Source of the DNA: Opitutales bacterium
Lineage (GTDB): Bacteria > Verrucomicrobiota > Verrucomicrobiia > Opitutales > UBA953
Length of the DNA: 64,000 bases
Assembly: GCA_024697185.1 (NCBI GenBank)
Contig: JAILGB010000020.1
Coordinates: 1-64,000 of the forward strand
Reading direction: 5' to 3'
The first letter of the stretch is position 1; every line of letters starts with the position of its first letter. The position numbers were made by a program, and so were the translations under genes. The notes beneath the pieces were generated by a model. The model was not told the DNA's origin and did not search any database. It was given only the letters and a program-made list of their open reading frames with translations. Positions 1,794-64,000 of this stretch are shown here, piece after piece.

Positions 1794-3119
1794 CTACCCT
1801 CTCACCGACTCATAGACTCGCAGGAGGAGCGGGCGGCCGAGGATGTTTTTGATTTTTTCGAAGCGGGAGAAAAGTTTTTCCATCGTGGATTCGGAGGTCG
1901 GATATGTGAGAAGCGTGACCGTTCCCGTTCCCGTTTCGCGGTGTTCGTAGGTTGCGACCTTGGCGATAGAGATGTTGAGCTCTGCGAGATCGCGATAAAT
2001 GTCGGCGAGCACGCCCACCTGGTCCGCCACGGTGACACGGATATAAAACGGCGATTTGATTTCATCGACCGTCGCCATACGCAGGTTTTCGCCCATATGG
2101 TAGTTGGCGTCGATATCCGCCGCCGTGAAAAACTTGTGCGCGTCGTCCCTGATCCCGATGATTGCATCGACAATGTCCGAGATGACAGCCGAGGATGTCG
2201 CGTCGCGTCCCGCGCCTCTGCCGATAAGGATTGTCGTTCCCGCGACGTCGCCTGAGAGTTTGATCGCGTTATAGACGCCGTCAACGCGCGCCAAGGTCTT
2301 GTCGAGCGGGACGAGCGACGGGGAGACGCTCAGCGAGAGGGCGTTGGTTTTAAAGTTGCGCCGGATCAGCCCGATGAGTTTGATGCGGTAGCCGAAATTT
2401 TTTGCCAGGTCCATATCCTCGAGCGTCACATTGCGAATGCCTTCGACGAGCGCGTGGTCTTCGTCGATCCATTTGCCATGGGCGAGAAAGGCGAGGATGA
2501 CCGCCTTGTGAAACGCGTCCTTGCCATCGAGGTCGAGGGAATCGTCCTGTTCGACATAGCCGAGCGCCTTGGCGTCGGCGAGAATTGTCTCATAGGATTT
2601 TCGCTCCGCCTCCATGCGTGAGAGGATGTAGTTGCAAGTGCCGTTGATAATGCCCGCAATGGAGGCAAAACGGTTGGCGACGAGCCCTTCGCGCAGGGTT
2701 TTGATAATCGGGATCGCTCCCGCGACGGAGGCTTCAAAATAGTAATGCCCGCCGTGTTTTTTGACCAAATCGAAGAGTTGTTGTCCGCAGGCGTAGATCA
2801 GAGCCTTGTTGGCGGTAACAACGACTTTGCCGGCCTTGAGCGCCGCCTCCGTGTATTCGCGCGCCTTGCCTGTGCCGCCCATAAGTTCGCAGACGATATC
2901 GACGGCGGGATCGTTGATCACCTCGTAGGGATCTTCCGTCATGATTTGCGCGGGAACGTCAACGTCGCGGGAACGCCCGATGTCGCGGACGGCAATGCGC
3001 GGGAACGCGATTTTGACGCCGAGGCGATTTTCGAGTTCTTCGCGCTGCGGTTCAAGATTTTTCCAAACGCCCTGTCCGACCGTGCCGAACCCGATAAAGC
3101 CGATACCGATTTTTTTCAT
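1794..3119 (-). CDS. hom: homoserine dehydrogenase
   Basis: MKKIGIGFIGFGTVGQGVWKNL... NAD-binding start, ...VVTANKALIYACG..., ...GIINGTCNYILSRME..., C-terminal ACT-like region. Confidence 0.95.
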   Translation of the reverse strand: MKKIGIGFIGFGTVGQGVWKNLEPQREELENRLGVKIAFPRIAVRDIGRSRDVDVPAQIMTEDPYEVINDPAVDIVCELMGGTGKAREYTEAALKAGKVVVTANKALIYACGQQLFDLVKKHGGHYYFEASVAGAIPIIKTLREGLVANRFASIAGIINGTCNYILSRMEAERKSYETILADAKALGYVEQDDSLDLDGKDAFHKAVILAFLAHGKWIDEDHALVEGIRNVTLEDMDLAKNFGYRIKLIGLIRRNFKTNALSLSVSPSLVPLDKTLARVDGVYNAIKLSGDVAGTTILIGRGAGRDATSSAVISDIVDAIIGIRDDAHKFFTAADIDANYHMGENLRMATVDEIKSPFYIRVTVADQVGVLADIYRDLAELNISIAKVATYEHRETGTGTVTLLTYPTSESTMEKLFSRFEKIKNILGRPLLLRVYESVRG

Positions 3120-3779
3120 TTATTGTCCTTCCTTTTTGTCCGTTTTTTTGAATGTGTTTTCCTTGCCGGCGATCAGTCTGCGAATATTGGACTGGTGCAT
3201 CACGATGATAAAGACCGCGAGCGCCAAACAGACGACGATTTCGAGATTGGTATAATGCCCGATGCCGCATTTGGCGTAAATCATCGTAATGATCGGCAAC
3301 GCCAAACCGAAGGCGATCGAAGCCACCGCCACGATTTTACAGGCAAAATAAACCGCCAGCCATACGAGCAGCGCCACCAAGATCGCCAGCGGCATCGCGC
3401 CCAAAAGCCCGCCGATCGTCGTCGAAACGCCTTTGCCGCCTTTAAATTTCAAAAAGATCGAAAAACAATGTCCCAGCACCGCGCCGATAAAACCGCAAAG
3501 CTGCGCCACCGCGACATCGCCCGCCGCCGTTCCCGCGACCGCCCCGAAGACAAAGGGCCAAAACGCCGCGACAAAGCCTTTCGCCATATCGAGGAAGAAA
3601 ACCGTGTTGCCCGCTTTTTTGCCGCAACAGCGCTTTACATTGGTCGCTCCCGGATTGCCGCTGCCCGCATGCAAAATATCAACGCCGCAACGGCGCGCCA
3701 CAATCACGGCAAACGGCAACGACCCCAAAAAATACCCGGCGACCAACGCCGCCGCCGGCAATAAAATAGAAATGTCCAT
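3120..3779 (-). CDS. plsY: acyl-phosphate:glycerol-3-phosphate acyltransferase
   Basis: YFLGSLPFAVIVAR...HAGSGNPGATNVKR...FKGGKGVSTTIGG motifs of the PlsY family. Confidence 0.93.
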   Translation of the reverse strand: MDISILLPAAALVAGYFLGSLPFAVIVARRCGVDILHAGSGNPGATNVKRCCGKKAGNTVFFLDMAKGFVAAFWPFVFGAVAGTAAGDVAVAQLCGFIGAVLGHCFSIFLKFKGGKGVSTTIGGLLGAMPLAILVALLVWLAVYFACKIVAVASIAFGLALPIITMIYAKCGIGHYTNLEIVVCLALAVFIIVMHQSNIRRLIAGKENTFKKTDKKEGQ

Positions 3780-3893
3780 ACGACTAATTATAAGACAGAA
3801 GCGGCGTCAAGTTAAGAACTTAATCACGGCGGGAACGCGTTCCCGCGCGCTGCATTTATTGCGGGAACGGCACTTTGCCTTTATAATGAAACT

Positions 3894-4385
3894 ATGGCGA
3901 CGACAAAAAAAGAGCGAATTGCACTTTATCCGGGCAGCTTCGATCCTGTTCACAACGGCCACCTCCATCTGATCGAACGTGCGGCAAAACTCTTTGACCG
4001 CCTCTATGTCGGCGTCGCCAAAAACCCGGGCAAAAACCCGCTTTTTAGCGAGGGCGAGCGCGTGGAGCTCCTGAAAGAGGTTTTAAAAAAACACAAGAAC
4101 GTCCGCGTGGTCAAAATTGACGGACTGACCGTCGATGCCGCCGAAGCCTTGGGCGCGACGGTTATCGTGCGCGGCTTGCGCTTAGTGTCGGACTTTGAGG
4201 ACGAACTCCTGCTCGACATGCACAACCGCCGCCTCAACGGCAAAATCGAAACCGTCTATATGATGCCGACGCAACAGTTCCTCTATTTCAACTCTTCCTT
4301 TGTCAAACAAATCGTCTCCATCGACCCCCAGCGCCTCGGCGACTACGTTCCCGCGGCAGTCTTGAAACGCCTTCTCAAAAAATAG
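3894..4385 (+). CDS. coaD: phosphopantetheine adenylyltransferase
   Basis: ALYPGSFDPVHNGHLHLIERA...VRGLRLVSDFEDE... Confidence 0.96.
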   Translation: MATTKKERIALYPGSFDPVHNGHLHLIERAAKLFDRLYVGVAKNPGKNPLFSEGERVELLKEVLKKHKNVRVVKIDGLTVDAAEALGATVIVRGLRLVSDFEDELLLDMHNRRLNGKIETVYMMPTQQFLYFNSSFVKQIVSIDPQRLGDYVPAAVLKRLLKK

Positions 4386-4386
4386 C

Positions 4387-4923
4387 ATGGCAAAAAAATC
4401 ACTTTATCTCCGCATCGCGGGAACGCTGGCGACGCTCGGACCGCTCGGCGGACGCCTGCCCGCTCCCGGCACCTGGGGAGCCCTTGCGGGAACGGTTTTT
4501 TACTGGCTCGCGTTTCAGACGACCGGACTTAACAGCCCCGGACATTTGAGACAGTTTTTGATGCTGGCGGGAGCGCTGACATTGTTCGCCGTTCCCGTCT
4601 GTTCCGCCGGAGAAAAATTTTTGGGGCGGAAAGATCCCGGAGAGGTCAATTTTGACGAATTCGCCGTGATGCCGTTTTGCTACGCCGGGCTCGGTCCCGT
4701 CATCTCTCGCGCGGGAACGGCAGGACAAATCCTCTGGCTTCTGGCGGGTTTTGCCCTCTTCCGCCTTTTTGACATCGCAAAGCCTTTCGGGATCAAAAAA
4801 CTGCAAAAAATCCCGGGCGGCGCCGGCATCGTCATCGATGATTTCGTCGCGGCGCTCTTCACATGCGCCTGCCTCTGGCTCGCCCGCTGGGCTTATGTTT
4901 TGACGGCAAACCTTTCAAACTGA
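4387..4923 (+). CDS. pgpA: phosphatidylglycerophosphatase A family protein
   Basis: GPLGGRLPAPGTWGALAGTVFYW...DPGEVNFDEFAVMP...FRLFDIAKPFGIKKLQKIPGGAGIVIDDFVAAL. Confidence 0.9.
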   Translation: MAKKSLYLRIAGTLATLGPLGGRLPAPGTWGALAGTVFYWLAFQTTGLNSPGHLRQFLMLAGALTLFAVPVCSAGEKFLGRKDPGEVNFDEFAVMPFCYAGLGPVISRAGTAGQILWLLAGFALFRLFDIAKPFGIKKLQKIPGGAGIVIDDFVAALFTCACLWLARWAYVLTANLSN

Positions 4924-4927
4924 TTTT

Positions 4928-6424
4928 ATGGCATTATTCAACTGGCTCAAAAACCGTTCCGCAGGTGTTCTGCTCCACCCGACCGCTCTGCCCTCCGACC
5001 AGGGAATCGGCTGCTTCGGCAAAGGAGCCTACCGATTTGTGGACGTCCTGTCGGAAATGCGCGTGCGCTATTGGCAAGTCTGTCCGCTCGGGCCGACCGG
5101 CTACGGCAACTCCCCCTACCAATGCTATTCTTCCTTTGCCGGCAATCCCAGCATGATCGACCTCGAATCCCTCGGCGGGAACCTCGAAATCTTTAAAAAC
5201 CTCAATCGCGCAAAAGTCGATTTTGACCGCTTCGCTCCCCTCCACGCCGCCGAGCTCGACCGCATCATCGAAACTTTTTTGAACAACAAAAGCGCGCTCG
5301 ACAAATGGGGCGATTTTGAAAAATTCAAACGCGACAACCAATACTGGCTTCACGGATATGCGCTTTACATGGCGTTAAAGGAGGAAAACGGCGGGAACGC
5401 CTGGTATGAATGGCCGGACGAGTTTAAAAACTTTAAGAACGCCGTCAAAAAAACATTCCCGCCAAACATTAGAAAAAGCGTCGAAAAAATCGAAATTATC
5501 CAGTTTCTCTTTTTTGCCCAATGGCAGGAATTGCGGCACTACGCCCGCCAACGCGGGATCGAGATCATCGGCGACGCTCCGATTTTTACCGCGCTCGACT
5601 CGGCGGACGTCTGGCAAAATCCTGAGATTTTCCAACTCGACAAAAAACAAAAACCGCTCGCCGTCGCCGGTGTCCCGCCCGATTATTTTTCCGCCACAGG
5701 TCAGCGCTGGGGCAATCCGCTCTATGACTGGAAGGCCCTCAAAAAACAAAAATACGCCTGGTGGATCGAACGCTTGCGCGCCTGCTTCAAACTCTACGAT
5801 GTCGTTCGCATCGATCATTTTAGGGCGTTTTGCGACTATTGGCGCATTCCCGCGGACTCTCCCGACGCGCGCAACGGCGAATGGATCAAAGGTCCCGGAC
5901 TGGAATTTTTTGAAACCGTCCGCAAATCGCTCGGCGAAGCCCGCCTAATCGCCGAAGACTTGGGAGATCTCAACGACGATGTCCGCAAACTCCTCGCCGA
6001 TACGGGATTGCCGGGCATGAATGTTTTGATTTTCGCCTTTGGCGGCGACCCCAAAAATCTTTATTTGCCGCACAATATCAAATCCAATTCCATCGTTTAT
6101 CCGGGAACGCACGACAACGACACCGTCGCCGGATGGTACGCGAGAGCTCCGGAGCACGAAAAAGATTTCTTCCGCCGTTATCTCTGGACGGACGGCAACG
6201 CACCGCATTGCGCGATGATCAACGCGGCTCTCAAATCTCACGCCAAAATGGCAATCGTCGCCGCACAGGATATTTTGGGACTCGGTAGCGAAGCCAGGTT
6301 TAACGAGCCGGGAACGAGCGAAGGCAATTGGTGCTGGAGACTTCGCGACGAAGAGCTCCAAGAGCTCAAAACACTCGCGGGAACACTCGTGCGCCCGCTT
6401 GTCGAAATCAGCGGACGATGCTAA
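4928..6424 (+). CDS. malQ: 4-alpha-glucanotransferase (GH77)
   Basis: GVLLHPTALPSDQGIGCFG...YWQVCPLGPTGYGNSPYQCYSSFAGNP...VRIDHFRAF...AEDLGDL...PGTHDNDT. Confidence 0.95.
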   Translation: MALFNWLKNRSAGVLLHPTALPSDQGIGCFGKGAYRFVDVLSEMRVRYWQVCPLGPTGYGNSPYQCYSSFAGNPSMIDLESLGGNLEIFKNLNRAKVDFDRFAPLHAAELDRIIETFLNNKSALDKWGDFEKFKRDNQYWLHGYALYMALKEENGGNAWYEWPDEFKNFKNAVKKTFPPNIRKSVEKIEIIQFLFFAQWQELRHYARQRGIEIIGDAPIFTALDSADVWQNPEIFQLDKKQKPLAVAGVPPDYFSATGQRWGNPLYDWKALKKQKYAWWIERLRACFKLYDVVRIDHFRAFCDYWRIPADSPDARNGEWIKGPGLEFFETVRKSLGEARLIAEDLGDLNDDVRKLLADTGLPGMNVLIFAFGGDPKNLYLPHNIKSNSIVYPGTHDNDTVAGWYARAPEHEKDFFRRYLWTDGNAPHCAMINAALKSHAKMAIVAAQDILGLGSEARFNEPGTSEGNWCWRLRDEELQELKTLAGTLVRPLVEISGRC

Positions 6425-6993
6425 TGCGGGAACTGATTTTGGCATCTGCATCGCCAAGACGGCGCGAACTCCTCGCCGCCGCCGGGTTCAGTTTTAAAAT
6501 CTGCAACGCCAACGTCATCGAAAACGAAGACCCGGACGGCGACCCGCAAAAAGCCGTTGCCGACAACGCCCGGGCAAAAGCCCTGGCTGTCGCCCAAAAA
6601 AATCCAAACGCCGTCGTTCTCGGAGCCGATACGACCGTCGCCGTCGGCAAACGGGTTCTCAACAAGCCGGCGGACATGAACGAAGCCGTAAAAATGTTGA
6701 AAGAACTCAGCGGCAAAACCCATACCGTCTATACCGGTTTTTGTATCGTCTGCGGACAAAGAAAATTGCTGCGGGAAGAAATCGTCGCCTGTAATGTCAC
6801 CTTCAAGCAAATCGACGATGCGACAATCGCCCGATATTTTGAGCGCGTCAACCCCCTCGACAAAGCTGGAGCCTACGGCATCCAAGAATCGCGGGAACTC
6901 ATCATCGAATCCTACGACGAACCCCTCTCAAACATCATCGGACTCCCTATCGAGATCGTCAAAGAGATTCTCGAAGAGGAACTCCAAAAATAA
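6418..6993 (+). CDS. maf: Maf family nucleotide pyrophosphatase
   Basis: MLMRELILASASPRRRELLAAAGFSF...VVLGADTTVAVG...HTVYTGFCI...DKAGAYGIQ...NIIGLPIE. Overlaps the malQ stop. Confidence 0.93.
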   Translation: MLMRELILASASPRRRELLAAAGFSFKICNANVIENEDPDGDPQKAVADNARAKALAVAQKNPNAVVLGADTTVAVGKRVLNKPADMNEAVKMLKELSGKTHTVYTGFCIVCGQRKLLREEIVACNVTFKQIDDATIARYFERVNPLDKAGAYGIQESRELIIESYDEPLSNIIGLPIEIVKEILEEELQK

Positions 6994-7009
6994 GCCTCAA
7001 CCCCTCGCG

Positions 7010-7107
7010 GGAACACCCGCCCCGACGCGTGCCGATGCCGTTCCCACGCCGCGCGTTTGCGAACGCGACACGACACGCCCGAGCGAGTCGTAAGAATAAT
7101 TCCGTTT
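7010..7107 (-). pseudogene. orphan RHS core fragment
   Basis: Minus-strand translation KRNYSYDSLGRVVSRSQTRGVGTA... closely matches KRNYSYDSLGRVVSRTQTRGAGTP in the neighbouring RHS ORF. 44 bp (7064-7107) are identical to 9205-9248. Confidence 0.75.
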
Positions 7108-7126
7108 GGCAGACATCCTCAATATC

Positions 7127-7654
7127 TCATTCTCTTTCGCTTGAAAAATTTGTCTTTCGAATAAGCGCATCCGAAATTTTCTCCAAGTGCTCCTTTATAA
7201 GCTCTTCGTCTTCCGGAGACATAAGTTCTCGTGCTCTCTTGTAATCGTTATACATCATTGACGGGAAATCAAGATGAATTAGATTTTCGGTGATCTCAAT
7301 ATAGTAGATTTCCCTGATAATTTTGGGCATCAATTCCGACAATTTTTCCAACTCGGGACGTATTTTCTCGGCGTAATACAAAGAGTTTCTCTTTTTCCCA
7401 ACGAGACAAAGCGGCCACTCCAAGATAATCCGATCAATTAATGGAATGCGAACCTGCATTCTCCCCAACTTATAGACTTGTTTGGTACTAAGAATAAAAT
7501 CCGTCCAAAAGAACAAAGACGACCATGTTGCATAGTTCCCCGCATAAATTTCGGGGAAATCGTCTAATTTTTTCTTGTGATAATAGGTATAGCCGTAGCA
7601 GTCCAAAGTGGCTTTCGTCCCTGTGCAATTCCATGTTCCTTCTTTACGATTCAT
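7127..7654 (-). CDS. hypothetical protein directly downstream of the RHS tip; immunity-protein candidate
   Basis: 175-aa low-GC ORF between the RHS C-terminal region and the orphan RHS core fragment. No family recognised. Confidence 0.6.
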   Translation of the reverse strand: MNRKEGTWNCTGTKATLDCYGYTYYHKKKLDDFPEIYAGNYATWSSLFFWTDFILSTKQVYKLGRMQVRIPLIDRIILEWPLCLVGKKRNSLYYAEKIRPELEKLSELMPKIIREIYYIEITENLIHLDFPSMMYNDYKRARELMSPEDEELIKEHLEKISDALIRKTNFSSERE

Positions 7655-24211: not shown

Positions 24212-26746
24212 TCAATCTTCTTTGAGTGCGAACAACGATTCCAAGGTCGGATAAAATTGGGACCATTTTGAAATATCGATATTGTTTTCAATCAACGAGC
24301 TGAATATTTCGCGCTTTGACTGCTTCAGCTGCTCGATGCGCTCTTCGATCGTTCCCGCCGCAATCATCCGATAGACGAAAACGCGTCGTGTCTGTCCGAT
24401 TCTGTGAACACGGTCGATCGCCTGCTCTTCAACTGCCGGATTCCACCAGGGGTCGAGCAGGAAGACATATTCCGCGCTCGTCAGCGTCAAACCGGTGCCG
24501 CCCGCGCGAAGACTGATGAGAAAAATAGCGGGTCCCTTGCATTCTTGAAATTGTTTTACGGGTTCCGCGCGATCCGTCGTCTCCCCGGTGATTTTAAAAA
24601 ACGGCACGGAGGGGAAGCGTTCCCGCAAATAATGTTCCGCATGATTGAGAAACTTTACAAACTGGCTGAAAATTACAATATGCCCGCCGTTATCGACAAT
24701 CTCCTCGACGCGCTCGGAAAGTGCCGCAAGCTTGCCCGAAGCCTCCTCCGCCGGCAAAAGTTCGTTCCCGCGCAACAAATGCAAATCACAGGCGGCCTGA
24801 CGCAGGCGCAGTAAAAGCGTGAGGAAATTAAGCGATTTTTTGTGATAGATTTCAGAAATGTTTTTATCGCCGTATTCGTTGACTCCGTGGCGGGCGATCG
24901 TCTCATAGGACTCGCGCTGACGCTCTGTCAAGGGACAATAAAGGACATTCAAGACTTTTTCCGGCAAGTCCTTCGCGACCTCTTCCTTGCTGCGGCGCAA
25001 AATAAACGGCGCGATCTGCGTGCGCAACTTTTCCAACTGTTCCGAATCCTCTTCTCCGGCACCCTCCAAATCTGTGCGACGCCCCAGCAAACCCGGCATC
25101 AAAAATCTAAAAATCGTCCACAGGTCAAGATTGCGGTTTTCAATCGGCGTTCCCGTGAGCGCAATACGATACTTCGACTTTATCTCCATTACCGCATGCG
25201 CGATTTTTGTCGTCGGATTTTTAATGAATTGCGCCTCGTCAAGCACCGCGTAAGTATAGTGACGACGGCACAAGCGACGGCGATTGTTGCGAAAATAGCC
25301 GTAGCTCGTCAAAAAAACTCCGGATTTGACGGGAACGTTTTTTTGCAAAGTTCCCCAAACGGAAACAGGCATATCGGGGAAAAATTTGAGAATCTCATTT
25401 TTCCACACGGGAACGACCGACGCGGGACAAATAATCAAAGCCGTCTTGGTTTTCTTGGGATCGAGGGCGATGACAGAAAGGATTTGCAAAGTCTTCCCCA
25501 AGCCCATTTCGTCCGCCAAAAGCGGGTGCACGCCGCAATCGAGCATCTTTTTTATCCAGGCGACGCCACGCGTCTGATAAGGGCGCAAATAATCCGGCGT
25601 TCCCGCGGGCGCTTCGCCTTCTTTTAAAAAGCGTTTTTTCCAACGTGTCAATTTTTTGTCGGCAATCAGATTTTTTGACGACTCGCCGTTATAGAGCGAC
25701 AAGAGCGAATAAATCGGCAGCTCCTTGTCCTCTTTTTCTTCCCAGTCGGCAAGGAACTCCAAATCTCGGGAGCGCAATTTGATGCGGCCGTATTCCGGCA
25801 GATAAATGCCGTCTTCACGATTTTTCAACAAAAGCCGGCTTTCCTTGTCCGACAAAACTTTTCCGTTATACGACAAAAGATAATGCAGCGAAAAAGAATT
25901 TTTGTGTGCGCTGCTCAACTTTGCAAGCGTATCGACCTCTGTTGCCGCCTGATTAAAAATCCCGAATAATTTTTTCGCGCCGTCGATGTCGGGAAACGCC
26001 TGTTCCCAGGATTTTAAAAAATTGCGAACGAAAATCTCAATCTTTGACATTTCGCAAAGTTCATAAACGCGATTTCGCGAATTGAAAACGAAGCCGGCTT
26101 TATGGGCGAAGCTCCCCAGTTTCAGCAAACTCCTCCGGTCTTCGCTCGTCAAAACGATTCCGGCGTCCGAAAGTTTTGACAATGCGCTGATCGGGGAACG
26201 TTTTTCATCCTCAAAAACAAATTGCGCGCTCAAAATCAGCAGCGTCTCCTCGAGCTTAAAGAAAAGTTTTAAAGTCTTCTTTTCTTCGACAAGAGATTTT
26301 CCCTCGGGAACGGCCGTTTTCTCGGGAACGGATTTTTCTGCGGGAGCGCTATCCGCCTTCTCCTCCTTCGCCACGAGTTTCGGGCTTTCTTCCGCCAAAA
26401 ATTCCTCGACAAAATAAACGGCGGCCACAGCAAGACCTGCGCGCATTTCAAAAGGAAGATCCGCCGGGCTTTGCCATTTTAACCGCCGCGTATTTTTTTC
26501 CGCCGACAAAAGGATCTTCACATCGCCGATATTTTCCAGTCTGAAAACAATCGTCGCCGTCCAAAGTCCGAGAGTCAAAGCATAGGCATGGGGAATCTCC
26601 CGATAAAGGCGACGACCGTTTTTCAAAAAAGCCGCGGGAACGAAATCCTCTTCCCAATTTCCGTTTTCCCGACAATCCAAAATCTCGCTCCAAGATAAAA
26701 TTGAAGCTGCAGAATAAGATTTTTGAGTGCGGGGAACGTAAAACAT
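24212..26746 (-). CDS. SNF2/SWI2-family DEAD-like helicase
   Basis: LRPYQTRGVAWIKKMLDCGVHPLLADEMGLGKTLQ...LDEAQFIKN...ALTGTPIENR...SLRAGGTGLTLTSAEYVFLLDPWWNPAVEEQAIDRVHRIGQTR. Confidence 0.94.
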   Translation of the reverse strand: MFYVPRTQKSYSAASILSWSEILDCRENGNWEEDFVPAAFLKNGRRLYREIPHAYALTLGLWTATIVFRLENIGDVKILLSAEKNTRRLKWQSPADLPFEMRAGLAVAAVYFVEEFLAEESPKLVAKEEKADSAPAEKSVPEKTAVPEGKSLVEEKKTLKLFFKLEETLLILSAQFVFEDEKRSPISALSKLSDAGIVLTSEDRRSLLKLGSFAHKAGFVFNSRNRVYELCEMSKIEIFVRNFLKSWEQAFPDIDGAKKLFGIFNQAATEVDTLAKLSSAHKNSFSLHYLLSYNGKVLSDKESRLLLKNREDGIYLPEYGRIKLRSRDLEFLADWEEKEDKELPIYSLLSLYNGESSKNLIADKKLTRWKKRFLKEGEAPAGTPDYLRPYQTRGVAWIKKMLDCGVHPLLADEMGLGKTLQILSVIALDPKKTKTALIICPASVVPVWKNEILKFFPDMPVSVWGTLQKNVPVKSGVFLTSYGYFRNNRRRLCRRHYTYAVLDEAQFIKNPTTKIAHAVMEIKSKYRIALTGTPIENRNLDLWTIFRFLMPGLLGRRTDLEGAGEEDSEQLEKLRTQIAPFILRRSKEEVAKDLPEKVLNVLYCPLTERQRESYETIARHGVNEYGDKNISEIYHKKSLNFLTLLLRLRQAACDLHLLRGNELLPAEEASGKLAALSERVEEIVDNGGHIVIFSQFVKFLNHAEHYLRERFPSVPFFKITGETTDRAEPVKQFQECKGPAIFLISLRAGGTGLTLTSAEYVFLLDPWWNPAVEEQAIDRVHRIGQTRRVFVYRMIAAGTIEERIEQLKQSKREIFSSLIENNIDISKWSQFYPTLESLFALKED

Positions 26747-26799: not shown

Positions 26800-26830
26800 T
26801 CGTTCCCGCGAATTGTCTTCACGGGAACGA
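26800..26830 (-). terminator. motif-pair terminator downstream of the DUF481-like gene
   Basis: 9-bp perfect stem TCGTTCCCG / CGGGAACGA. Minus strand continues with a T7 run. Confidence 0.8.
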
Positions 26831-29503: not shown

Positions 29504-29687
29504 GATTTGTTCTTTTTTTGGATTTGTTATTAAATTACAGGCATAGAATGCCCTTAAACTATTAAAGCATATTTTTTACAATCTTTCAAGCAAAAAAACT
29601 TTTAAAAAATATCAGCATTTTTTAATATTTTTCTTGTCTAAAATATCTTCAAATAAAATTATGATAAAGCAAATCTTTTACAAAAAA

Positions 29688-29716
29688 GCGTTCCCGCGAA
29701 AAATCCGCGGGAACGC
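29688..29716 (-). terminator. motif-pair terminator downstream of the nanA-like gene
   Basis: 11-bp perfect stem GCGTTCCCGCG / CGCGGGAACGC, 7-nt loop, T-runs on both sides. Confidence 0.88.
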
Positions 29717-29738
29717 CATTTTTTTCTACAGTGTCGAT

Positions 29739-34486: not shown

Positions 34487-34532
34487 AAAAATCGTTCCCG
34501 CGAGAGACAAAATCTTCGCGGGAACGATTTTT
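34487..34532 (-). terminator. motif-pair intrinsic terminator downstream of ridA
   Basis: Perfect 17-bp stem AAAAATCGTTCCCGCGA / TCGCGGGAACGATTTTT, 12-nt loop, T-run on the minus strand. Confidence 0.92.
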
Positions 34533-39432: not shown

Positions 39433-39534
39433 GTTCCCGCAAAAAAATAAATTTCGCGGGAACGACGCTGTTCCCGCGAAAAAAACCGTTCCCGCGAGAT
39501 TTGATTTTACGGGAACGGCAATTGCGGGAACGCC
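39433..39534. repeat. intergenic array of six GTTCCCGC/GCGGGAAC-type motif copies in alternating orientations
   Basis: Direct reading: GTTCCCGC, CGCGGGAACG, GTTCCCGCG, CGTTCCCGCG, ACGGGAACGG, GCGGGAACGCC within about 100 bp. An adjacent A16-CG-A8 tract lies at 39407-39432. Confidence 0.85.
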
Positions 39535-42767: not shown

Positions 42768-45326
42768 TTATTTTGCTTCAAGCCAGTTAGAGGCGGCGGC
42801 GCTGTCGGCGACAAGCGGCACCGTGAGCGGGAACGCGTTTTGCATCTCTCGCGTCACAATCGTTTTTACGATTTCGACGGTTTCGGCGGGGGTTTCGACA
42901 ATCAATTCGTCGTGAATCTGCAAAACAATACGGGCTGCGGGAACGGATTTTTTGAGTGCGGCATCGACTTTAAGCATCGCCACCTTCATGATGTCGGCGG
43001 CGGAACCCTGAATCGGCGTGTTGAGCGCAAGTCGCTCGCCCAGTTTTTGAACGACCTTGTTGGCGGCGGCGAGTTCCGGCAGATTGCGACGACGGCCGAG
43101 AACCGTCTCAACAAAGCCGTCACTGCGCGCCTTGGCGATAATTTCATCCATGTAGCGGCGCACTCCCGCGTATTTTTTAAAATAGTTCTCCATGTAGTTT
43201 TTAGCTTCGGCACGCGAGATCCCGAGCGACTGGGCGAGCGCGAATTCGCCGATCCCGTAAATGATGCCGAAATTGACGGCCTTGGCATGGCGGCGCATCG
43301 TCGGCGTCACAGCCTCCGGCGCACAATGAAAAACATTGCAGGCGGTAACGCCGTGAATATCTTCGCCCTCACGAAAAGCTTCGCGCATCGACTCGTCGCC
43401 GGAAATATGCGCCAACACGCGCAACTCGACTTGCGAATAGTCCGCATCGACAAAAACGCAGCCCGGCTTGGCGACGAACATCCGCCGCAAATCTCCGCCC
43501 AACTCGCCCCGCGCGGGAACGTTTTGCAGATTGGGCTCCGACGAACTCAAACGTCCCGTGACGGTGATCGCCTGATTGAAAGTCGTGTGAATCCTACCGT
43601 CGGCGGCGACCGATTCGACAAGCCCGTCCGTAATGCCTTTCAGTTTGACAAGCTGGCGATAAGTCAAAATCTTGCCGACAACAGGCGACAGCGGCATCAG
43701 CTCTTTCAAAACCTCGGCGTCTGTCGAATAACCGCTTTTTGTTTTGTGGCGCGCCGGCAATTGCAGTTTTTCAAACAAAATCACACCCAACTGCTTGGGA
43801 GAATTGAGATTGAAGGTTTCACCGACTTCGGCAAAGATCTCCTGTCGCAAAAGCGCCGCCCTTTCGTCCAAATCGGCTGAAAACGCGCGCATTTTTTCAC
43901 AATCGACGGCAATGCCCGTCGCCTCGATTTCCGCCAGCAAAAAAGTCAACGGCATTTCGACCGTCTTAAAAAGTTCCAACAGCGCAGCTTTTTTCGACAG
44001 AGCCTCCTCTTGGCTTTTGTAGATTTCCCGAAACTCCGCCATCGTTGCGGGAACGCCGATTTTTTTTGCGGGATCAAGCACATAGGCCGCCAGAGCGATG
44101 TCAAAAAATTCACGCTCGGCAAAAAGTCCGTTCCCGTCAAATTTTCCGGAAATCTTAATCCATTGTCTCAAAATCGATTTGAGGTCATAAGCGACAAGTT
44201 TTGCCGTTCCCGCAAAAATCGCCTTCAATGCCTGCGGGAACGCCAATTCGTCGGCTTCAAAAAACTGCGTTCCCGCGGCAATTTGCAAAATCCCATTTCG
44301 GAGCAGGAGAAAAATTTCCGGCGTTCCCGCGGCGGCTTCATTAAATTTTTCCTCGTCAAAAGGAAGCGTTTCCTCCGCGTTCCCGCCAGCGTCTTTTTCA
44401 TCGTCCCCGCCAAAATCGAGCGTGAGTTCGTCCGGTTCCTGCACCGCGACAGACTGCAAGTTCCAATCCTTGATCAGTTTTGAAAAATCCAGGCGTTTGA
44501 AAATCTTATAAAGTGCGGCATCGTCGGCGTTCCCGCGCAAATTTTGTTCCGGGGCAAAGTCGAGCGGCGCTTCCCGGCAAATCGTCGCCAGGTCATAGGA
44601 AAGCCATGCGGAATCTTTGCCGGCAATCAATTTGTTTTTGAGCGAATCGCGGATATCGAGCGCTTCGACATTCCCGTAAATCGTTTTGAGATCTCCGCAG
44701 GAGACGAGAAGTTCCCGCGCGGTTTTTTCGCCGATGCCGGGAACACCGGGAATGTTGTCGGACGCATCGCCCCAAAGCGCTTTGAGATCGACGATTTTTG
44801 CGGGAACGAAATGGTAGTCTTCAAAAAATTTTTCCGGTGTATAATCGATTGTGTCGGTTTTGCCCATTCGCGAAACGATGAGTTTTACCGTGGTTGTCTG
44901 CGAAACAAGTTGGAGGCTGTCGCGGTCGCCGGTGACGACAATGCAGCGCCAGTCCGATTTTTCACAACGGCTCGCGATCGTGCCGATCAGATCGTCCGCC
45001 TCCCAGCCTTCCTGTTCATAGACGGGAACGCGCATCGCGCCCAAAATTTCTTTTGCCAACGGGATTTGCGGCCTCAAGTCGTCGGGCATCGGCTTTCGCT
45101 GCGCCTTGTATTGCGGATATTTTTTGTGGCGGAATGTCGGTGCATGAACATCAAAACAGACACAGAGTGCGTCCGGCTTTTCCTCGTTGAGCAAGCGTTG
45201 TAAGATCATCAAAAAACCATAAACGGCGTTTGTCGGAGTGCCGTCGCTCGCACTCAAAGGACGAATCCCGTAAAAAGCGCGATTGATAATGCTGTTCCCG
45301 TCAAGCACCATTAATTTTTTCATCAT
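42768..45326 (-). CDS. polA: DNA polymerase I
   Basis: N-terminal 5'-nuclease (DGNSIINRAFYGIRPL...GWEADDLIGTIA) and family A polymerase domain (DADYSQVELRVLAHISGDESM...RRHAKAVNFGIIYG...QIHDELIVE). Confidence 0.96.
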   Translation of the reverse strand: MMKKLMVLDGNSIINRAFYGIRPLSASDGTPTNAVYGFLMILQRLLNEEKPDALCVCFDVHAPTFRHKKYPQYKAQRKPMPDDLRPQIPLAKEILGAMRVPVYEQEGWEADDLIGTIASRCEKSDWRCIVVTGDRDSLQLVSQTTTVKLIVSRMGKTDTIDYTPEKFFEDYHFVPAKIVDLKALWGDASDNIPGVPGIGEKTARELLVSCGDLKTIYGNVEALDIRDSLKNKLIAGKDSAWLSYDLATICREAPLDFAPEQNLRGNADDAALYKIFKRLDFSKLIKDWNLQSVAVQEPDELTLDFGGDDEKDAGGNAEETLPFDEEKFNEAAAGTPEIFLLLRNGILQIAAGTQFFEADELAFPQALKAIFAGTAKLVAYDLKSILRQWIKISGKFDGNGLFAEREFFDIALAAYVLDPAKKIGVPATMAEFREIYKSQEEALSKKAALLELFKTVEMPLTFLLAEIEATGIAVDCEKMRAFSADLDERAALLRQEIFAEVGETFNLNSPKQLGVILFEKLQLPARHKTKSGYSTDAEVLKELMPLSPVVGKILTYRQLVKLKGITDGLVESVAADGRIHTTFNQAITVTGRLSSSEPNLQNVPARGELGGDLRRMFVAKPGCVFVDADYSQVELRVLAHISGDESMREAFREGEDIHGVTACNVFHCAPEAVTPTMRRHAKAVNFGIIYGIGEFALAQSLGISRAEAKNYMENYFKKYAGVRRYMDEIIAKARSDGFVETVLGRRRNLPELAAANKVVQKLGERLALNTPIQGSAADIMKVAMLKVDAALKKSVPAARIVLQIHDELIVETPAETVEIVKTIVTREMQNAFPLTVPLVADSAAASNWLEAK

Positions 45327-52856: not shown

Positions 52857-55115
52857 TTAGAGGCGGGCGTGGCAAGTTCTCGCGATGACGTCAAGCTGCT
52901 GCTCGCGTGTCAAATCGATAAACTTCACCGCATAACCGGAAACGCGAATTGTAAAGTTCGCATATTCCTCTTTTTCCGGATGTTCCATCGCATCAATGAG
53001 TTTGTCCGTCCCGAAGACATTGACATTCAAATGGTGTGCGCCCTTGAGGAAATAGCCGTCCATGACGTTCACCAGATTGGGAATACGCTCGTCTTCGTTG
53101 TGTCCGAGAGCATTCGGATTCATCGTCTGCGTATTAGAAATACCATCAAGCGCCCAATGATACGGGATTTTTGCCACGGAATTCAAAGACGCCAGCAAAC
53201 CGTTTTGCTCCGCCCCGTAAGAAGGCGACGCTCCCGGCGCAAACGGAGCCCACGCGGGACGGCCGTCCGGCATCGCACCCGTCGCCTTACCGTAAACGAC
53301 ATTGGAAGTGATCGTCAAAATAGAGGTTGTCGCCTCCGCATTGCGATAAGTGTGGCGTTTCTTGACATCCTCGAGGAATGTTTTGAGTAACCACAGACCG
53401 ATATTGTCGGCGCGATCGTCGTCGTTGCCGTATTTGGGGAATTCGCCTTCGATTTCAAAATCCTTGGCATAGCCCTCTTCGTCACGAATGACCTTGACCT
53501 TCGCGTACTTGATAGCGCTGAGAGAGTCGATAACATGCGAGAATCCGGCAATACCCGTCGCGAAAGTGCGTCGGACGTCCGTATCGATAAGAGCCATTTC
53601 AGCAGCCTCGTAATAGTATTTGTCGTGCATATAGTGAATGAGGTTGAGCACATTCACATAGATATCGGCGATCCAGTCGAGCCAGAACTTGTATTTCTCG
53701 ATCACTTCATCGTAATCGAGGTATTCGCTCGTGATACGCTCCATCTTTGGACCGCATTGGATGCGGTGTTTCTCGTCAAAGCCGCCGTTGATCGCATAAA
53801 GCAAGGCTTTGCCCAAATTGGCGCGCGCGCCGAAGAACTGGATCTCCTTGCCCGTCTGTGTTGCGGAGACACAGCAGCAAATGCTGTAATCATCACCCCA
53901 AACCGGCTTCATCACACGATCGTTCTCATACTGGATGGACGACGTGTCGATCGAAATTTTTGAAGCGAAGCGACGGAATGTTTCCGGCAAATCTTTGTCG
54001 TAAAGCACGGTAATATTGGGTTCCGGAGAGGGGCCCATATTGACGAGGGTGTTCAAGAAACGGAAATCGTTTTTGGTCACCATATGGCGGCCGTCCATGC
54101 CGATACCCGCCAACTCGAGTGTCGCCCATGTCGGATCGCCCGAGAACAATTGGTTGTATTCGGGAATACGTGCAAATTTGACCATGCGGAACTTCATCGT
54201 CATGTGGTCGATAATTTCCTGCGCTTCCGTCTCCGTTAAAACTCCATTGCGCAAATCGCGCTCGATATAAATATCAAGGAAAGTCGAGATGCGTCCAACG
54301 CTCATCGCCGCGCCGTTTTGTGTTTTGACAGCCGCGAGATAGCCGAAATAAAGCCACTGGCAAGCTTCACGAGCGTTGGCGGCGGGTTTGGAAATGTCAT
54401 AGCCGTAGATTTTGGCCATCGCCTTCATTTCCTTCAAGGCCTTGATCTGCATCGAAATCTCTTCGCGAACGCGGATCACTTCGTCATACATAGCTCCGCA
54501 GCCGGCGTTCAATTTGTCGTTTTCTTTTTGCTCAATCAGATAGTCGATACCGTAAAGAGCGACACGGCGATAGTCGCCGACAATGCGACCGCGACCATAT
54601 GTGTCCGGCAATCCTGTGACGATGTGTGTCTTTCGAGCCAAACGCATCTCCGGCGTATAAGCGGCAAAAACAGCATCGTTATGCGTCGTCATATAGCTCG
54701 TAAAAATGTGTTGCAGCTCCTTATCGATTTCATAACCGTAGGATTCGGCCGCCTTAATCGCCATCTTGATACCACCATAAGGCATAAAAGCGCGCTTGAG
54801 CGGCTTGTCCGTTTGAAGACCGACGACTTTTTCAAGATCTTTCAATTCCTGATCAATGTAACCGGGACCGTAAGCGGTCATCGAGGAAACGACTTTCGTT
54901 TCGCAATCAAGCACACCGCCCTTGGCACGCTCCTGCTTTTGGAGCTTTTGCAAGGCACCCCAAAGTTTATTCGTCGCATCGGTGGCAGGCGTCAAAAAGC
55001 TTTCGTCACCATCATAGGGCGTGTAATTGTTTTGGATAAAGTCACGAACATTGACTTCCTCCTTCCACAGACGACCTTCAAAGCCGTTCCATTGATCATA
55101 ATTTTTCATAGTCAT
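52857..55115 (-). CDS. pflB: formate acetyltransferase (pyruvate formate-lyase)
   Basis: [33 protein letters not shown]...[32 protein letters not shown]...glycyl-radical motif [24 protein letters not shown]. Confidence 0.97.
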
Positions 55116-58965: not shown

Positions 58966-58981
58966 AACAATTGATTTTAAT

Positions 58982-59845
58982 TTAATTTCCCAGGCGTGTG
59001 AAGAACAAAAGTCCTGTCTCGGAAAAGATCTGATATCCCCAAAAATAAGCGACAACGACATAAATCGTTCCCGCGATCAAAAGCGGAGGACCAAAAGGGA
59101 CAACACCGCTTTCGGGAACGGCACCGTCATCCTCGCTATAAACTTTTTTGCTCCGTTTCAAGCAACGCCAAACAAAAGCGACAAACGAGAATAACAAACC
59201 GATCAAAGAGCCTACAAAAAGCGCAAATAAGGTTGCGCCCCACCCCCAAAAGGCTCCAATCCCCGCCATCAGATAAATATCGCCCTCGCCCATGGCCTCC
59301 CTCTTGAGCAAACATGAAGCAAAAAAACGGATCATTAGCAAAACTGTCGTTCCCGTAGCGAGGCCGGTCGCCATCGACCTTATATCCTGTGTCAAAAAAC
59401 AGCCACAAATCACCGCCGAAACAATAAACCACGCCAAAACAGAGTCCGGCAACGACATCGAGTCATAATCTTGCATCGACAACACTATCGCGAACGAAAT
59501 ATAAATCATTGCCGCAACTGCGAGATCCCACGGGAACAAAATCCATGAGGTGCAAAAAGATATCGCCGTCAACAACTCAATCGCCGGATAGCGAATACTG
59601 AAGTGCCTCCCGCAACAAGCCGCCCGCCCGCGCAAAATGATCCAGGAAAGAATCGGAATGTTGTGCCAAAGAGGGATGGCTTTGCCGCAGGCACAATGAG
59701 AACCCGGAGTGACAATGCTCTCACCGCGAGGAATTCTTAAAATGCAAACATTTAAAAAACTCCCGACAACGGCCCCAAAAACAAAAAAGACTGCAGCCCA
59801 AAAATACGGGAACGCCACGTTGATCTCTATTAAATTTTCAAGCAT
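58982..59845 (-). CDS. pilD: prepilin peptidase (A24 family)
   Basis: FGAVVGSFLNVCILRIPRGESIVTPGSHCACGKAIPLWHNIPILSWIILRGRAACCGRHFSIRYPAIELLTA...MQDYDSMSLPD...EAMGEGDIYLMAGIGAFWG. Confidence 0.92.
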   Translation of the reverse strand: MLENLIEINVAFPYFWAAVFFVFGAVVGSFLNVCILRIPRGESIVTPGSHCACGKAIPLWHNIPILSWIILRGRAACCGRHFSIRYPAIELLTAISFCTSWILFPWDLAVAAMIYISFAIVLSMQDYDSMSLPDSVLAWFIVSAVICGCFLTQDIRSMATGLATGTTVLLMIRFFASCLLKREAMGEGDIYLMAGIGAFWGWGATLFALFVGSLIGLLFSFVAFVWRCLKRSKKVYSEDDGAVPESGVVPFGPPLLIAGTIYVVVAYFWGYQIFSETGLLFFTRLGN

Positions 59846-59857
59846 TGTCGGGAAGGA

Positions 59858-61699
59858 TTAAAAAGGGAAAAAGAAAGGGATGAGAAAAACAGAAATAGCG
59901 CAGACAATGAGCGCCAACGGCAAACCGAGTTTCACAAAATCAAAAAATTTATAGCCGCCGGGTCCCATTACCAAAGTATTCACCGGAGTCGAAACAGGTG
60001 TAATAAACGATGCCGAACAAATAATCGCCACCATCATCGCGAAGGGCACCGGAGAAACTTGCAGTTTTGCAGCAATCTCAACCGCTACCGGAGCCAAGAT
60101 GATTGCAACAACGGTGTTGGAAATGAAAAGGCCGGTAATCATCACCAAGATGCCGATCGCCGCCATCCAAACATAGGGTGACGCGTTCCCGACAATGTTC
60201 GTAGCCGTTTCAACCGCCAAGTCGATCCCGCCCGCCTCTTGGATTGCTGTCGCAAAAGGATACATGCCGACAATCAAAAGCAATGTTGACCAATTGATAC
60301 AACGATAAACGCCGTCCATATCAATACAACGCGACAAAATCAACAAAACGGCTCCTATCAACGCAGCGAGGGCGTTGGGCACGACTCCCGAAATCATCAA
60401 GCCGACCATGATGAGAACAGACAGCAACGCCATAGGAGCCCGTCCGGGAGCCGCGACCGCATTTTTGGACTCTTCCGGCAAGGTCAACAAAACCATATCC
60501 CGCTTATGCTTGTCCAGATTGCGGACTACACTCCAAGGACCGCTTAAAAGCATAGAATCGCCGACTTCCAGTTTCCTGAATCCCAAATTTTCCGTATAGG
60601 CTTTTCCCGAGTGAATAATCCCGACGACACTCATCCCATACGTCCCTCTAAAATCTTTTTCCGCCAATGTACTCCCGACCAACTGCGAAGTATGCGGGAT
60701 GAGCACTTCCACAAAACCGTGCTCATGGTCAAAATTGTTAAAATAATCCTTTGTGTCCGTCTGTTCTTCCAACTTGCATTGTTCCGACATGCGGGCGACG
60801 AGATTTTCAAAAAGCTCTTCTCTGGACTTGGCGAAATCCACCAAGAGAACATCATTGGGCCTCAATTCCATTTCCGCATACGGACTCAACAATTCGCGAT
60901 TTATCCCGCGACGGCGTTCAATACAGATAATGTTAGCTCCAAAGTTCTTCCGGGTATCCAAATCTTTGATTTTTTTGCCGCAGACATTCGAAGCGGGCGG
61001 GACTTTCAAAATCGCCACCTTTTTACTCAGTTCATAACGCTCGACGCAGTCGTCATAATTAAAGCCCGCAACTTCCTCATCCGCAAAATTTCCGCCTTTC
61101 AAAAAACGGCGGGCAAAAAACATATAAACGATCGAAACGATTAAAATCGTCAATCCGATCGGCGTAAAATCAAAAAAATTCAATGCGGCAAACCCCTCTT
61201 TTTCGAGAGCCGAACTCGCAATCATATTGGGCGGGGTCGCGACCAGGGTCATCATGCCGCTAACGCCTCCGGCGATCGCTAACGGCATCATTATTTTCGA
61301 AGATGACATTTTTACTTTATGGCAAATATTTACCGCCACAGGAATAAAGAGCGCGACAATCCCTGTCGAACTCATTACAGAACCGATAATCCCGACAGCC
61401 AGCATCAAAAACACCATCAGTTTTTTAGGATTGTCACCCGCCATTTTTACAATCCAAACCCCAACCTTTGAGGAAACTCCCGTTCGCTCGAGGCTCTCAC
61501 CGATAATAAACATCAAGGCGATCAAAATGATACTTTGGTCCGAAAAACCTTTGAGCGCGTCCTGAAACTTTACAACGCCTGTCAACGGCAAAGCCAAAAG
61601 CGCAAACAAAGCGACAAAATCCATTCGTGGCTTATTGATGACAAAACAAAGCACACAAACAGCCAAAAGAGATAAAGCTATGAGCAGATCGCCGTTCAT
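59858..61699 (-). CDS. SLC13/DASS-like anion permease with TrkA-C domains
   Basis: Multi-TM ...LFIPVAVNICHKVKMSSSKIMMPLAIAGGVSGMMTLVATPPNMIASS... with central TrkA-C-like region and C-terminal TM half. Confidence 0.85.
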   Translation of the reverse strand: MNGDLLIALSLLAVCVLCFVINKPRMDFVALFALLALPLTGVVKFQDALKGFSDQSIILIALMFIIGESLERTGVSSKVGVWIVKMAGDNPKKLMVFLMLAVGIIGSVMSSTGIVALFIPVAVNICHKVKMSSSKIMMPLAIAGGVSGMMTLVATPPNMIASSALEKEGFAALNFFDFTPIGLTILIVSIVYMFFARRFLKGGNFADEEVAGFNYDDCVERYELSKKVAILKVPPASNVCGKKIKDLDTRKNFGANIICIERRRGINRELLSPYAEMELRPNDVLLVDFAKSREELFENLVARMSEQCKLEEQTDTKDYFNNFDHEHGFVEVLIPHTSQLVGSTLAEKDFRGTYGMSVVGIIHSGKAYTENLGFRKLEVGDSMLLSGPWSVVRNLDKHKRDMVLLTLPEESKNAVAAPGRAPMALLSVLIMVGLMISGVVPNALAALIGAVLLILSRCIDMDGVYRCINWSTLLLIVGMYPFATAIQEAGGIDLAVETATNIVGNASPYVWMAAIGILVMITGLFISNTVVAIILAPVAVEIAAKLQVSPVPFAMMVAIICSASFITPVSTPVNTLVMGPGGYKFFDFVKLGLPLALIVCAISVFLIPFFFPF

Positions 61700-61716
61700 T
61701 TTTTAAGTTTTGAACC

Positions 61717-61737
61717 GTTCCCGCAACTGACGGGAAC
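61717..61737 (-). terminator. weak motif-pair hairpin downstream of the VWA-like gene
   Basis: 7-bp stem GTTCCCG / CGGGAAC, 7-nt loop, no convincing T-run. Confidence 0.35.
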
Positions 61738-61823
61738 TCTTAAATCAGTATAAAAAAAATCCAAAGTTTTTTCAAACGAAGAGCCGTCTTGTCCCGACAA
61801 TGTTCTCGCAAGTGTTTTTACGA

Positions 61824-63245
61824 TCAAGAATCGTCGTCATCGTCTTCGTCAAAGTCCTCTATCTCAAATTCAGGCTCTTCGGGAACGGGCATTTTGGATT
61901 TGGACAACGCTTTTTTTGAACGCTTTGATTTTTTAGACGATTTTTTCCTTTTCAAATATGAAACATCCGTTATTTCACCGCCGGTCAATTCCACCAGTTT
62001 TCTAAAATGCTCCTGAGGTTCCCGGGTAATTGTATAACAATAAACAGCCGGTTTGTTATTGCGGGATTTAACGACTTTGAGCCAACGTTCAAGCCAGCGC
62101 AAATCCTTGGCTTTTCGATCGTCGTCAAGTTTCGGGTGATAGCGGGAGTCCGCAAAAAGCAATTCTCCGTCCCTGCCCCATTGACGCAAACCGTCTTCAA
62201 AGTCCGAAAAGATAATCAAGCCGTCATAACCGCCTTCCAACACAACATCCAGCCACGCCCCGACCGATCCCGTAGCAAAATTGGGCGCGTATTTTTTGTA
62301 AATCTGTCTGCCCGCGATCGACAATTTTTTTTCATCCGTATTGTCATCGCCCATCTTTTTTGCCATAACGGCAGCCTGTTTATCCACGCGGGAACGCTTG
62401 GCGCCCGTCAACTCCCCGTCGCGAACCTCTGTGACAATCGCATTAAATTCATAAATGTCCGCATCGGGGAAAAGTTCGTAAATTTCCGCCTTGACCGCAG
62501 GAAGATAAGGTGTCATCGATGGTGAACAATCCAAATAAACCGCAAGTTTTTGCGCCTTGATTGTCGTTCCCATGATTTTAAATCCGCTAACAAAAGATTT
62601 GCCGTCCCCGATTCCAACTCCCTTTCCGGAACCGATTCCTCCGCCGGAACCTCCCCCGCTCCCGCTGCCCATATCGCCAAAACCGCTGGCAAAATCCCCA
62701 AAACCGTCCTTGCTGAAACCCGACAAGGAGGGCATGTCGATTTCTGGCAAAACAAGCGTTCCCGCCGTATTTTTCGCCATAATGCGTTTGGGCTGGACAT
62801 CAATTTTAGCAGCGCGCCGGGGGCGTTCCCGCGAAGCGCCGTCGTTCCCGCCGCCTGCTCCGGTAACAAACGCGTTCGGTTCCTCTTCAACATTAATCAC
62901 AATGCTTTGTGTGATATAAAAAATCGCAAAGGCCAACAAAATCAAATGGAAGACTAACGAAAAAACCAATCCGGCCCCCCCCCATGTCCGCAAAGTCCGA
63001 CGCCAAAAAGATTCCTTGTAATTTAAAACCTCCCCGTTCTCATTTTTCAAATGTCGCAACTTTTGCCCTGCGGGTGTCGTCTCCCAAACAAAATCTGACG
63101 TCTCCTTCGACAAAGGCGCATAGGCTTTCCTTTCCCGAGATTTTTTTGTCTCCGGATCTGAAGCTTTTGCGAGTTTGGATTTTTGCTTACAAACAAAACA
63201 AGCAAAGGCCTCTTGGGTCTTGATCGAATGTCTAGGCCAATTCAT
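61824..63245 (-). CDS. membrane-anchored VWA-like protein with glycine-rich linker and acidic tail
   Basis: One TM segment, GSGSGGGSGGGIGSGKGVGIGDG linker, KLAVYLDCSPSMTPYLPAVKAEIYEL (VWA/MIDAS-like), C-terminal EDFDEDDDDDS. Confidence 0.7.
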   Translation of the reverse strand: MNWPRHSIKTQEAFACFVCKQKSKLAKASDPETKKSRERKAYAPLSKETSDFVWETTPAGQKLRHLKNENGEVLNYKESFWRRTLRTWGGAGLVFSLVFHLILLAFAIFYITQSIVINVEEEPNAFVTGAGGGNDGASRERPRRAAKIDVQPKRIMAKNTAGTLVLPEIDMPSLSGFSKDGFGDFASGFGDMGSGSGGGSGGGIGSGKGVGIGDGKSFVSGFKIMGTTIKAQKLAVYLDCSPSMTPYLPAVKAEIYELFPDADIYEFNAIVTEVRDGELTGAKRSRVDKQAAVMAKKMGDDNTDEKKLSIAGRQIYKKYAPNFATGSVGAWLDVVLEGGYDGLIIFSDFEDGLRQWGRDGELLFADSRYHPKLDDDRKAKDLRWLERWLKVVKSRNNKPAVYCYTITREPQEHFRKLVELTGGEITDVSYLKRKKSSKKSKRSKKALSKSKMPVPEEPEFEIEDFDEDDDDDS

Positions 63246-63249
63246 ATTT

Positions 63250-64000
63250 TTATTTCCCGGACCAAAGCCTCAAACATTTTAGCAAAAAGTTTTCAAGCAC
63301 CGAACCGTCTTGCATGTTAAGCTCCAACAATCTCGCCGCGCGTTCCAATTCATAACAGGAAAGCGCGACCGGATGCACCAGCGGATTGGCGGTGCCATAG
63401 GCAAGCGACAGTTTTAACAGCGATTCTTGCATTTCAATCAACAATTGACGTCTGACTCCGCGTTCATTGCCGACACTTATCGCTTCGAGCTGATCTTCCG
63501 AAAGGTTCGGCGACAAATCCGCCTCCAGATGCTTCCATTCCTTTTCCGCAATTTTTTTTACAAGAGCCTGAAAACGCGCCGTCAAAGAATAAACGCTGAA
63601 AATAGCGCGATCTATCCCATGTGTCCTGACTTCATTTTGAGTCAAACCCAAAATCCATTTTTCAAAGTCCGCACGCCATTGCGTCCAGTCTTCGTCTTCA
63701 ATACAATCTTCTCCCGGGATTCTAAAATGCAGTGTGCGCGACAAAATCGTCGGCAAAACTTGGTTGATTGCCGTTGTCAGCAAAAAAATATGCGTTCCCG
63801 CCGGCGGCTCTTCAAGGGTTTTCAAAAATGCGTTCGCAGCATCTTTCCCCAAACGGTCCGCCTCATAAACACAGGCGACTTTTTTGTCACCGAAACTCGG
63901 CGCCAATTGGAGTTCCCGACAAAGTTCGCTCATCGAATCCATACTGATGCGACGAATTTTATTACTCGGGCGGATTGCATGAAAATCAATCGACTTGACA
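63250..64000 (-). CDS. holB: DNA polymerase III delta'/clamp-loader-like subunit (partial, runs off the right edge)
   Basis: CVYEADRLGKDAANAFLKTLEEPPAGTHIFLLTTAINQVLPTILSRTLHFRIPG. Reading frame stays open to the window end (VKSIDFHAIRPSNKIRRIS). Confidence 0.85.
   Translation of the reverse strand, partial: VKSIDFHAIRPSNKIRRISMDSMSELCRELQLAPSFGDKKVACVYEADRLGKDAANAFLKTLEEPPAGTHIFLLTTAINQVLPTILSRTLHFRIPGEDCIEDEDWTQWRADFEKWILGLTQNEVRTHGIDRAIFSVYSLTARFQALVKKIAEKEWKHLEADLSPNLSEDQLEAISVGNERGVRRQLLIEMQESLLKLSLAYGTANPLVHPVALSCYELERAARLLELNMQDGSVLENFLLKCLRLWSGK

Follow-up and report, generated by a model that had tools for sequence, protein, structure and literature searches.

A hyper-abundant 8-bp word confined to one genus of Verrucomicrobiota: a candidate DNA-uptake sequence

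A short non-palindromic word, CGGGAACG, is dispersed at very high density over the genome of an Opitutales bacterium of the phylum Verrucomicrobiota, where it is maintained as DNA and may well serve as a DNA-uptake sequence. It was studied in a stretch of 64,000 nucleotides (contig JAILGB010000020.1 of assembly GCA_024697185.1, positions 1 to 64,000; hereafter the window), in the whole genome to which this belongs (G000, 1.59 Mb in 32 contigs) and in related genomes. Restriction of transformation to an organism's own kind is known chiefly from uptake sequences, which have been reported mostly from two families of Proteobacteria. A search of the open-access literature, with subscription papers outside it, returned no report of CGGGAACG or of any Verrucomicrobiota uptake sequence; the letters of the word do recur in papers, in unrelated settings (apparently primers).

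Abundance and anatomy of the word

In the window, CGGGAACG or its complement CGTTCCCG occurs 178 times between 1920 and 64000, on both strands, within genes and between them, and 117 of these copies extend to the 9-mer GCGGGAACG (47 on the plus and 70 on the minus strand). An earlier note, made from the letters of the window, had singled out this 9-mer as hyper-abundant, and the counts bear this out. It is the most over-represented 9-mer of the window under an order-3 Markov model, which predicts 4.4 copies even when trained on sequence that includes the motif, and 100 dinucleotide-preserving shuffles of the window averaged 1.5 copies and never exceeded 4. The 7-mer GGGAACG, judged by eye to exceed 100 copies by a good measure, is present 189 times. 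Sequence searches of the whole genome, about 0.5 Mb of which was also read as stretches, found 3,488 copies of GCGGGAACG (1,662 + 1,826) against 48 for a reversed-word control, and 5,322 copies of CGGGAACG (3.3 per kb; 3,349 per Mb) against 105 for the control.

The dispersed functional unit is the 8-mer with weak flanking preferences rather than the enriched 9-mer first proposed, the outer G of which is a preference of 60-70% only. The core is CGGGAAC, followed by G in ~85% of copies; it is preceded by G or A and, before that, by two positions that avoid A, and downstream of it stand C or G and then a weak T-rich tail, which gives a consensus of about YCRCGGGAACGSC. An extended form, GCGGGAACGCC, which had been thought frequent, does exist and accounts for only 27 of the 117 GCGGGAACG copies in the window. 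The footprint spans ~12-16 bp, and its shape is the same whether copies are sense, antisense or intergenic, as it is in the other species that carry the word densely. No conservation of the flanks was seen past ~16 bp in aligned copies of these three classes, which indicates, in agreement with the earlier note, that the copies do not derive from a mobile element or from a longer repeat unit.

Maintenance of the word as DNA

Two pairs of close species, 92% and 88% identical and compared over ~60 kb each, retain 87% and 83% of the copies, respectively, against 57% and 41% of control 8-mers, and the divergence between them dips inside the core only. At four-fold-degenerate sites, divergence in one pair was 9.4% in the core, 22.5% within 15 bp and 20.4% elsewhere (p = 1e-9), and in the other pair 7.9%, 29.9% and 29.7% (p = 3e-18), so that these sites are 2.4-3.8 times less divergent in the core than within 15 bp of it. 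Such constraint at four-fold-degenerate sites shows that the word is maintained as DNA. Intergenic copies behave alike, with 1.4% divergence in the core versus 7.5% in the flank in one pair and 7.2% versus 15.3% in the other.

Orthologues from distant species of the genus resemble each other in copy number, with the copies mostly at different places; exactly shared sites amount to 16-26%, compared with 2-6% for the control, and single-mismatch states at orthologous sites were not enriched between these species. As density is kept while positions turn over, selection or drive acts on the word and its density, and not on given sites or codons.

Placement within and between genes

Copies occupy either strand and each of the six reading frames, as the earlier claim of both orientations and several frames had anticipated, with 1,227 in genes (3.2/kb) and 322 between genes (4.3/kb). 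The favoured reading frame is the sense frame for Ala-Gly-Thr (346 copies). Orientation is independent of GC skew, so that a check for strand bias proposed at the outset revealed no replication-strand skew. The word is thus spread over genes and gaps alike, and the earlier statement that it recurs in nearly every one of them was too strong: spacing is over-dispersed (coefficient of variation 1.47), and some genes of 2-3 kb have no copy at all, including the native 2.3-kb pflB (formate C-acetyltransferase; 52857..55115, minus strand). Word density showed no correlation with protein conservation in 54 genes, nor was there a bias towards gene ends of the kind reported for Pasteurellaceae. The idea that type IV pilus genes are kept free of the word holds for pilQ and both pilB genes in the window's own genome and was rejected because it fails in its siblings.

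Inverted pairs, described earlier as frequent, are indeed common between genes, where 33% of copies have an opposite copy at most 40 bp away, and are less so within genes (10%). Convergent intergenic regions are the richest in copies (11.5/kb, versus 4.7/kb in divergent ones). In a scan of 20 kb of the window, the terminator-like hairpins with the five longest stems were all inverted word pairs, and from sequence alone the intergenic pairs look like terminators. For example, the intergenic pair CGTTCCCG...CGGGAACG at 26801..26829 would form a terminator-like hairpin with a T-run on the minus strand, and the pair at 29689..29715 coincides with the top two predictions of this kind in the scanned 20 kb, which lie at 29687-29717 on opposite strands. 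Another intergenic pair, at 34493..34526, has A/T runs on its flanks, and next to an intergenic cluster of alternating copies (39457..39530) the segment 39433-39481 yields two of the strongest predicted hairpins.

The word is absent from the few restriction or defence islands examined, namely the beginning of the window and a GmrSD gene. The motif-free island at the contig end (1..1793, minus strand) precedes the first 8-mer copy at 1920, in line with the start at 1794 given earlier, and the probability of zero copies in 1,793 bp at the window rate is 0.007. It contains a truncated C5 DNA methyltransferase (6-485, minus strand) and an MTaX1 “methylase-associated” protein (491-1720, minus strand), and has the look of a restriction-modification-like island. 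The GmrSD restriction gene, 2.9 kb long (L024, 6883-9822), has no copy of the word either. Elsewhere in the window, a SNF2-family helicase (24212-26746, minus strand) resembles the ZorD and DISARM DrmD models, at scores below their cut-offs.

Distribution among relatives

The comparison with related genomes, also suggested in the earlier note, revealed that the word is confined to one genus: it is enriched in all eight species of this genus that were compared and stays at background in every other genus of the family and every other family of the order that was surveyed. Six species are dense, with 5,192-6,561 copies of the 8-mer each, and two are sparse (1,362 in G156 and 546 in G217). With larger samples of the sister genera, no comparable dispersed word was found in them.

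Three candidate dialects were rejected. The copies of CGGGTACG in G019 and of GAGGGTGCC in G082 all lie on one strand in one repeat-protein stretch, and CACCAACCC in G217 is a separate clustered repeat with a spacing of ~18 bp. The contig stretches concerned in G019 (L057) and G082 (L058), near 20 kb in length, consist of single-strand, in-frame repeated words that mimic overabundance in k-mer counts and probably encode giant repeat proteins. In G217 a dispersed repeat other than the word, CCACCACCAACCC, occurs on both strands in clusters with ~18-19-bp spacing (L036-L045, L137, L144).

In a tree of concatenated pilus proteins, G156 and G217 group together (support 95/97) beside the window's species, and the other five dense species form a separate clade; a ComEC tree with outgroups likewise unites G156, G217 and the window's species (98/95), and a PolA tree leaves these three unresolved. 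As the sparse species are nested among dense ones, loss is the simplest explanation. Perfect copies are 5-10 times fewer in sparse than in dense species, and one-off variants stand at 1.66-1.95x expectation in the sparse as in the dense species, compared with 1.07-1.40 in other genera, an enrichment that is suggestive of loss. If the word serves uptake, the lineage leading to G156 and G217 has probably lost its uptake bias, and its copies would be decaying.

The gene used for the PolA placement, polA, is native to the window (42768..45326, minus strand). Full-length DNA polymerase I is present in 8/8 species of the genus (L156-L171), and the sister-genus members searched match its 5'-3' exonuclease part only. 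The nearest named relatives are metagenome-assembled genomes labelled Oscillospiraceae, at ~45% identity, and it is possible that the genus acquired polA.

Competence and pilus genes

Much of the machinery sought in a competence-gene check is in place. The window's own genome encodes two PilB proteins, PilT, PilC and a secretin with PilM and partner genes, together with ComEC and a DprA that has a winged-helix domain. At scores below the curated cut-offs, the secretin resembles the Amuc_1098 family and the product of the adjacent gene the Amuc_1100 family. Seven prepilins are encoded, four in a minor-pilin operon (L007, 7389-10648) and three elsewhere, and there are prepilin matches to Verru_Chthon cassette families, again below cut-off. 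These matches were taken as a sign of Verrucomicrobiota.

Several neighbouring or related loci may be recorded here. Directly upstream of the minor-pilin operon lies the gene of a 1,878-aa subtilase autotransporter (L007, 1625-7261, plus strand), and the secretin gene adjoins one for a DnaJ and FGE-sulfatase domain fusion protein (L151, 9941-12544, minus strand). Both sparse species (L183 in G156, L182 in G217) have an extra prepilin cluster without a counterpart in the dense species; that of G156 is located near a second secretin, and one of its pilins is basic (isoelectric point 8.2).

Explanations for the word

We consider the chance somewhat better than even that CGGGAACG is the DNA-uptake sequence of one Verrucomicrobiota genus, maintained through transformation and recombination; that its maintenance reflects uptake is something that we infer. 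At or close to the type IV pilus, a receptor would bind the word on extracellular DNA, and the bound DNA would be pulled in and passed through ComEC. DprA and RecA would then recombine the incoming DNA, and fragments with an intact word would replace mutated copies, a recombination drive that could keep thousands of copies wherever they are tolerated. The testable sequence-level predictions of the uptake-like reading offered in the earlier note all turned out as for the DNA uptake sequences (DUS) of Neisseriaceae and the uptake signal sequences (USS) of Pasteurellaceae, whereas an electropositive receptor pilin and ComEA were not found.

Several points weigh against this account. ComEA was not detected, as PF12836 matches above cut-off fall in frames of ~800 aa, as is typical of Tex; a diverged ComEA or an analogue may possibly take its place, and some competent species have no recognisable ComEA, so that its absence alone does not rule out an uptake system. 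No electropositive ComP-like pilin was seen among the prepilins examined, the soluble domains of which are acidic in the dense species (isoelectric points 4.2-5.9), unlike the known DNA-binding minor pilins. An AlphaFold model of minor pilin 2 was poor (pLDDT 55), with unreadable local basic patches, and was not used. The family members searched share the kit of ComEC, DprA, secretin and T2SSE, including those without the word, so that this kit permits the word and does not explain its restriction to one genus; the sparse species, too, retain their type IV pilus, ComEC and DprA. Among the few recent changes that could be polarised, 22 were losses and 4 gains, mostly transitions, which indicates that the signal is one of removal of mutated copies and not of active gain. 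Proof of drive by gain was accordingly not obtained from these sites, and the maintenance signal would look the same under any process by which mutated copies are removed.

The alternatives named in the earlier note, a HIP1-like word, a nucleoid-protein site and a drive element, are weakened or retain some probability. It is somewhat unlikely, in our estimate, that the word is kept by neither uptake nor methylation, for instance by a genus-specific chromosome-wide binding or conversion system, or else that uptake proceeds via a receptor unlike the known basic minor pilins. Binding by an abundant chromosomal protein (in nucleoid structure, segregation, a recombination hotspot or replication), with selection on total site density, would fit the constant density despite positional turnover and a core constrained everywhere, and the strict core with tolerant ends is suggestive of protein-DNA contact. 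Nevertheless, we regard this as unlikely, given that Chi and KOPS are strand-skewed with replication whereas the word ignores GC skew, that over-dispersed spacing and copy-free genes of 2-3 kb argue against selection for even coverage, that terminator pairs would be unexpected, and that such functions are usually conserved whereas the word is found in one genus only.

A HIP1-like iterated word, generated and preserved by methylation of DNA in combination with mismatch repair, the mechanism that Elhai proposed for the cyanobacterial word, is distinctly improbable. The density is at or above HIP1 levels (3,349 per Mb versus 300-2,700 per Mb; PMC4390886), some end positions show an excess of one-off variants, as has been described for HIP1, and methyltransferase genes are present in the genomes; however, CGGGAACG is not self-complementary, PF00145 enzymes are missing from two dense species, PF01555 enzymes include no set obviously common to the six dense species (with orthology judged by frame lengths only), and losses of the word resemble ordinary transitions. 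This comparison covered the enzyme families PF00145 and PF01555. That the word is mainly part of a terminator stem that has spread is very improbable: inverted pairs cluster in convergent intergenic regions and form the longest-stemmed hairpins, but most copies are single, genic, in all frames and maintained at synonymous sites. Composition, codon bias and mobile repeats can be dismissed as the cause. The favoured Ala-Gly-Thr frame might have hinted at such an artefact, the chance of which is negligible when the reversed word is at background, enrichment far exceeds the Markov expectation, copies fill six frames and intergenic regions without flanks conserved past ~16 bp, and four-fold-degenerate sites are constrained; a codon or composition model, named earlier as what could undo the finding, therefore does not account for it.

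If CGGGAACG does act in uptake, some uncultured verrucomicrobia would be naturally transformable, which may offer a route to their genetics. Closely related species, some with the word, some largely stripped of it and some that never carried it, can be compared to test how such words arise, and the same contrast makes selection versus pure molecular drive testable. If uptake is not involved, a strongly maintained genome-wide word requires another cause.

Comparison with known systems

Chi and KOPS are likewise short oriented words spread over the chromosome, and the word differs from them in having no replication-strand skew. Their density is also lower. Cyanobacterial HIP1 (GCGATCGC) offers a closer likeness, as a hyper-abundant genic 8-mer that is clade-wide with low-density exceptions (PMC4390886). 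HIP1 is, however, palindromic and tied to methyltransferases, whereas the word here is not a palindrome and a shared enzyme was not seen in the two families tested.

The USS of Pasteurellaceae, with 1,471 copies in Haemophilus influenzae (PMC1939737), resemble the word in several respects: a 9-bp core with a strict centre, a T-rich downstream flank, few one-off variants, and frequent occurrence in genes with one orientation favoured in reading frames (PMC1939737; PMC2346458). A bias towards gene ends has been reported for Pasteurellaceae (PMC2346458). The word described here has no such bias, is unrelated in sequence and belongs to another phylum. Its flank is also weaker than the AT segments of USS.

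The DUS of Neisseriaceae, of which Neisseria gonorrhoeae has 1,965 (PMC1939737), were found by Treangen et al. to be highly conserved, located in permissive sites, absent from recently acquired genes and paired in terminators (PMC2397512). Like them, the word is short and non-palindromic, occurs in thousands of copies on both strands, is conserved amid diverging flanks, forms inverted pairs at putative terminators, is scarce in acquired genes and is accompanied by a type IV pilus and ComEC (PMC2397512). It differs in being unrelated in sequence, in lacking among the pilins found here a basic ComP-like one, in that uptake is read here from sequence, in its mostly genic location and in its density, which is ~2-4 times higher. 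If confirmed, it would be an independent and much denser example of a system already known in kind, and would extend such systems to a further phylum, the Verrucomicrobiota.

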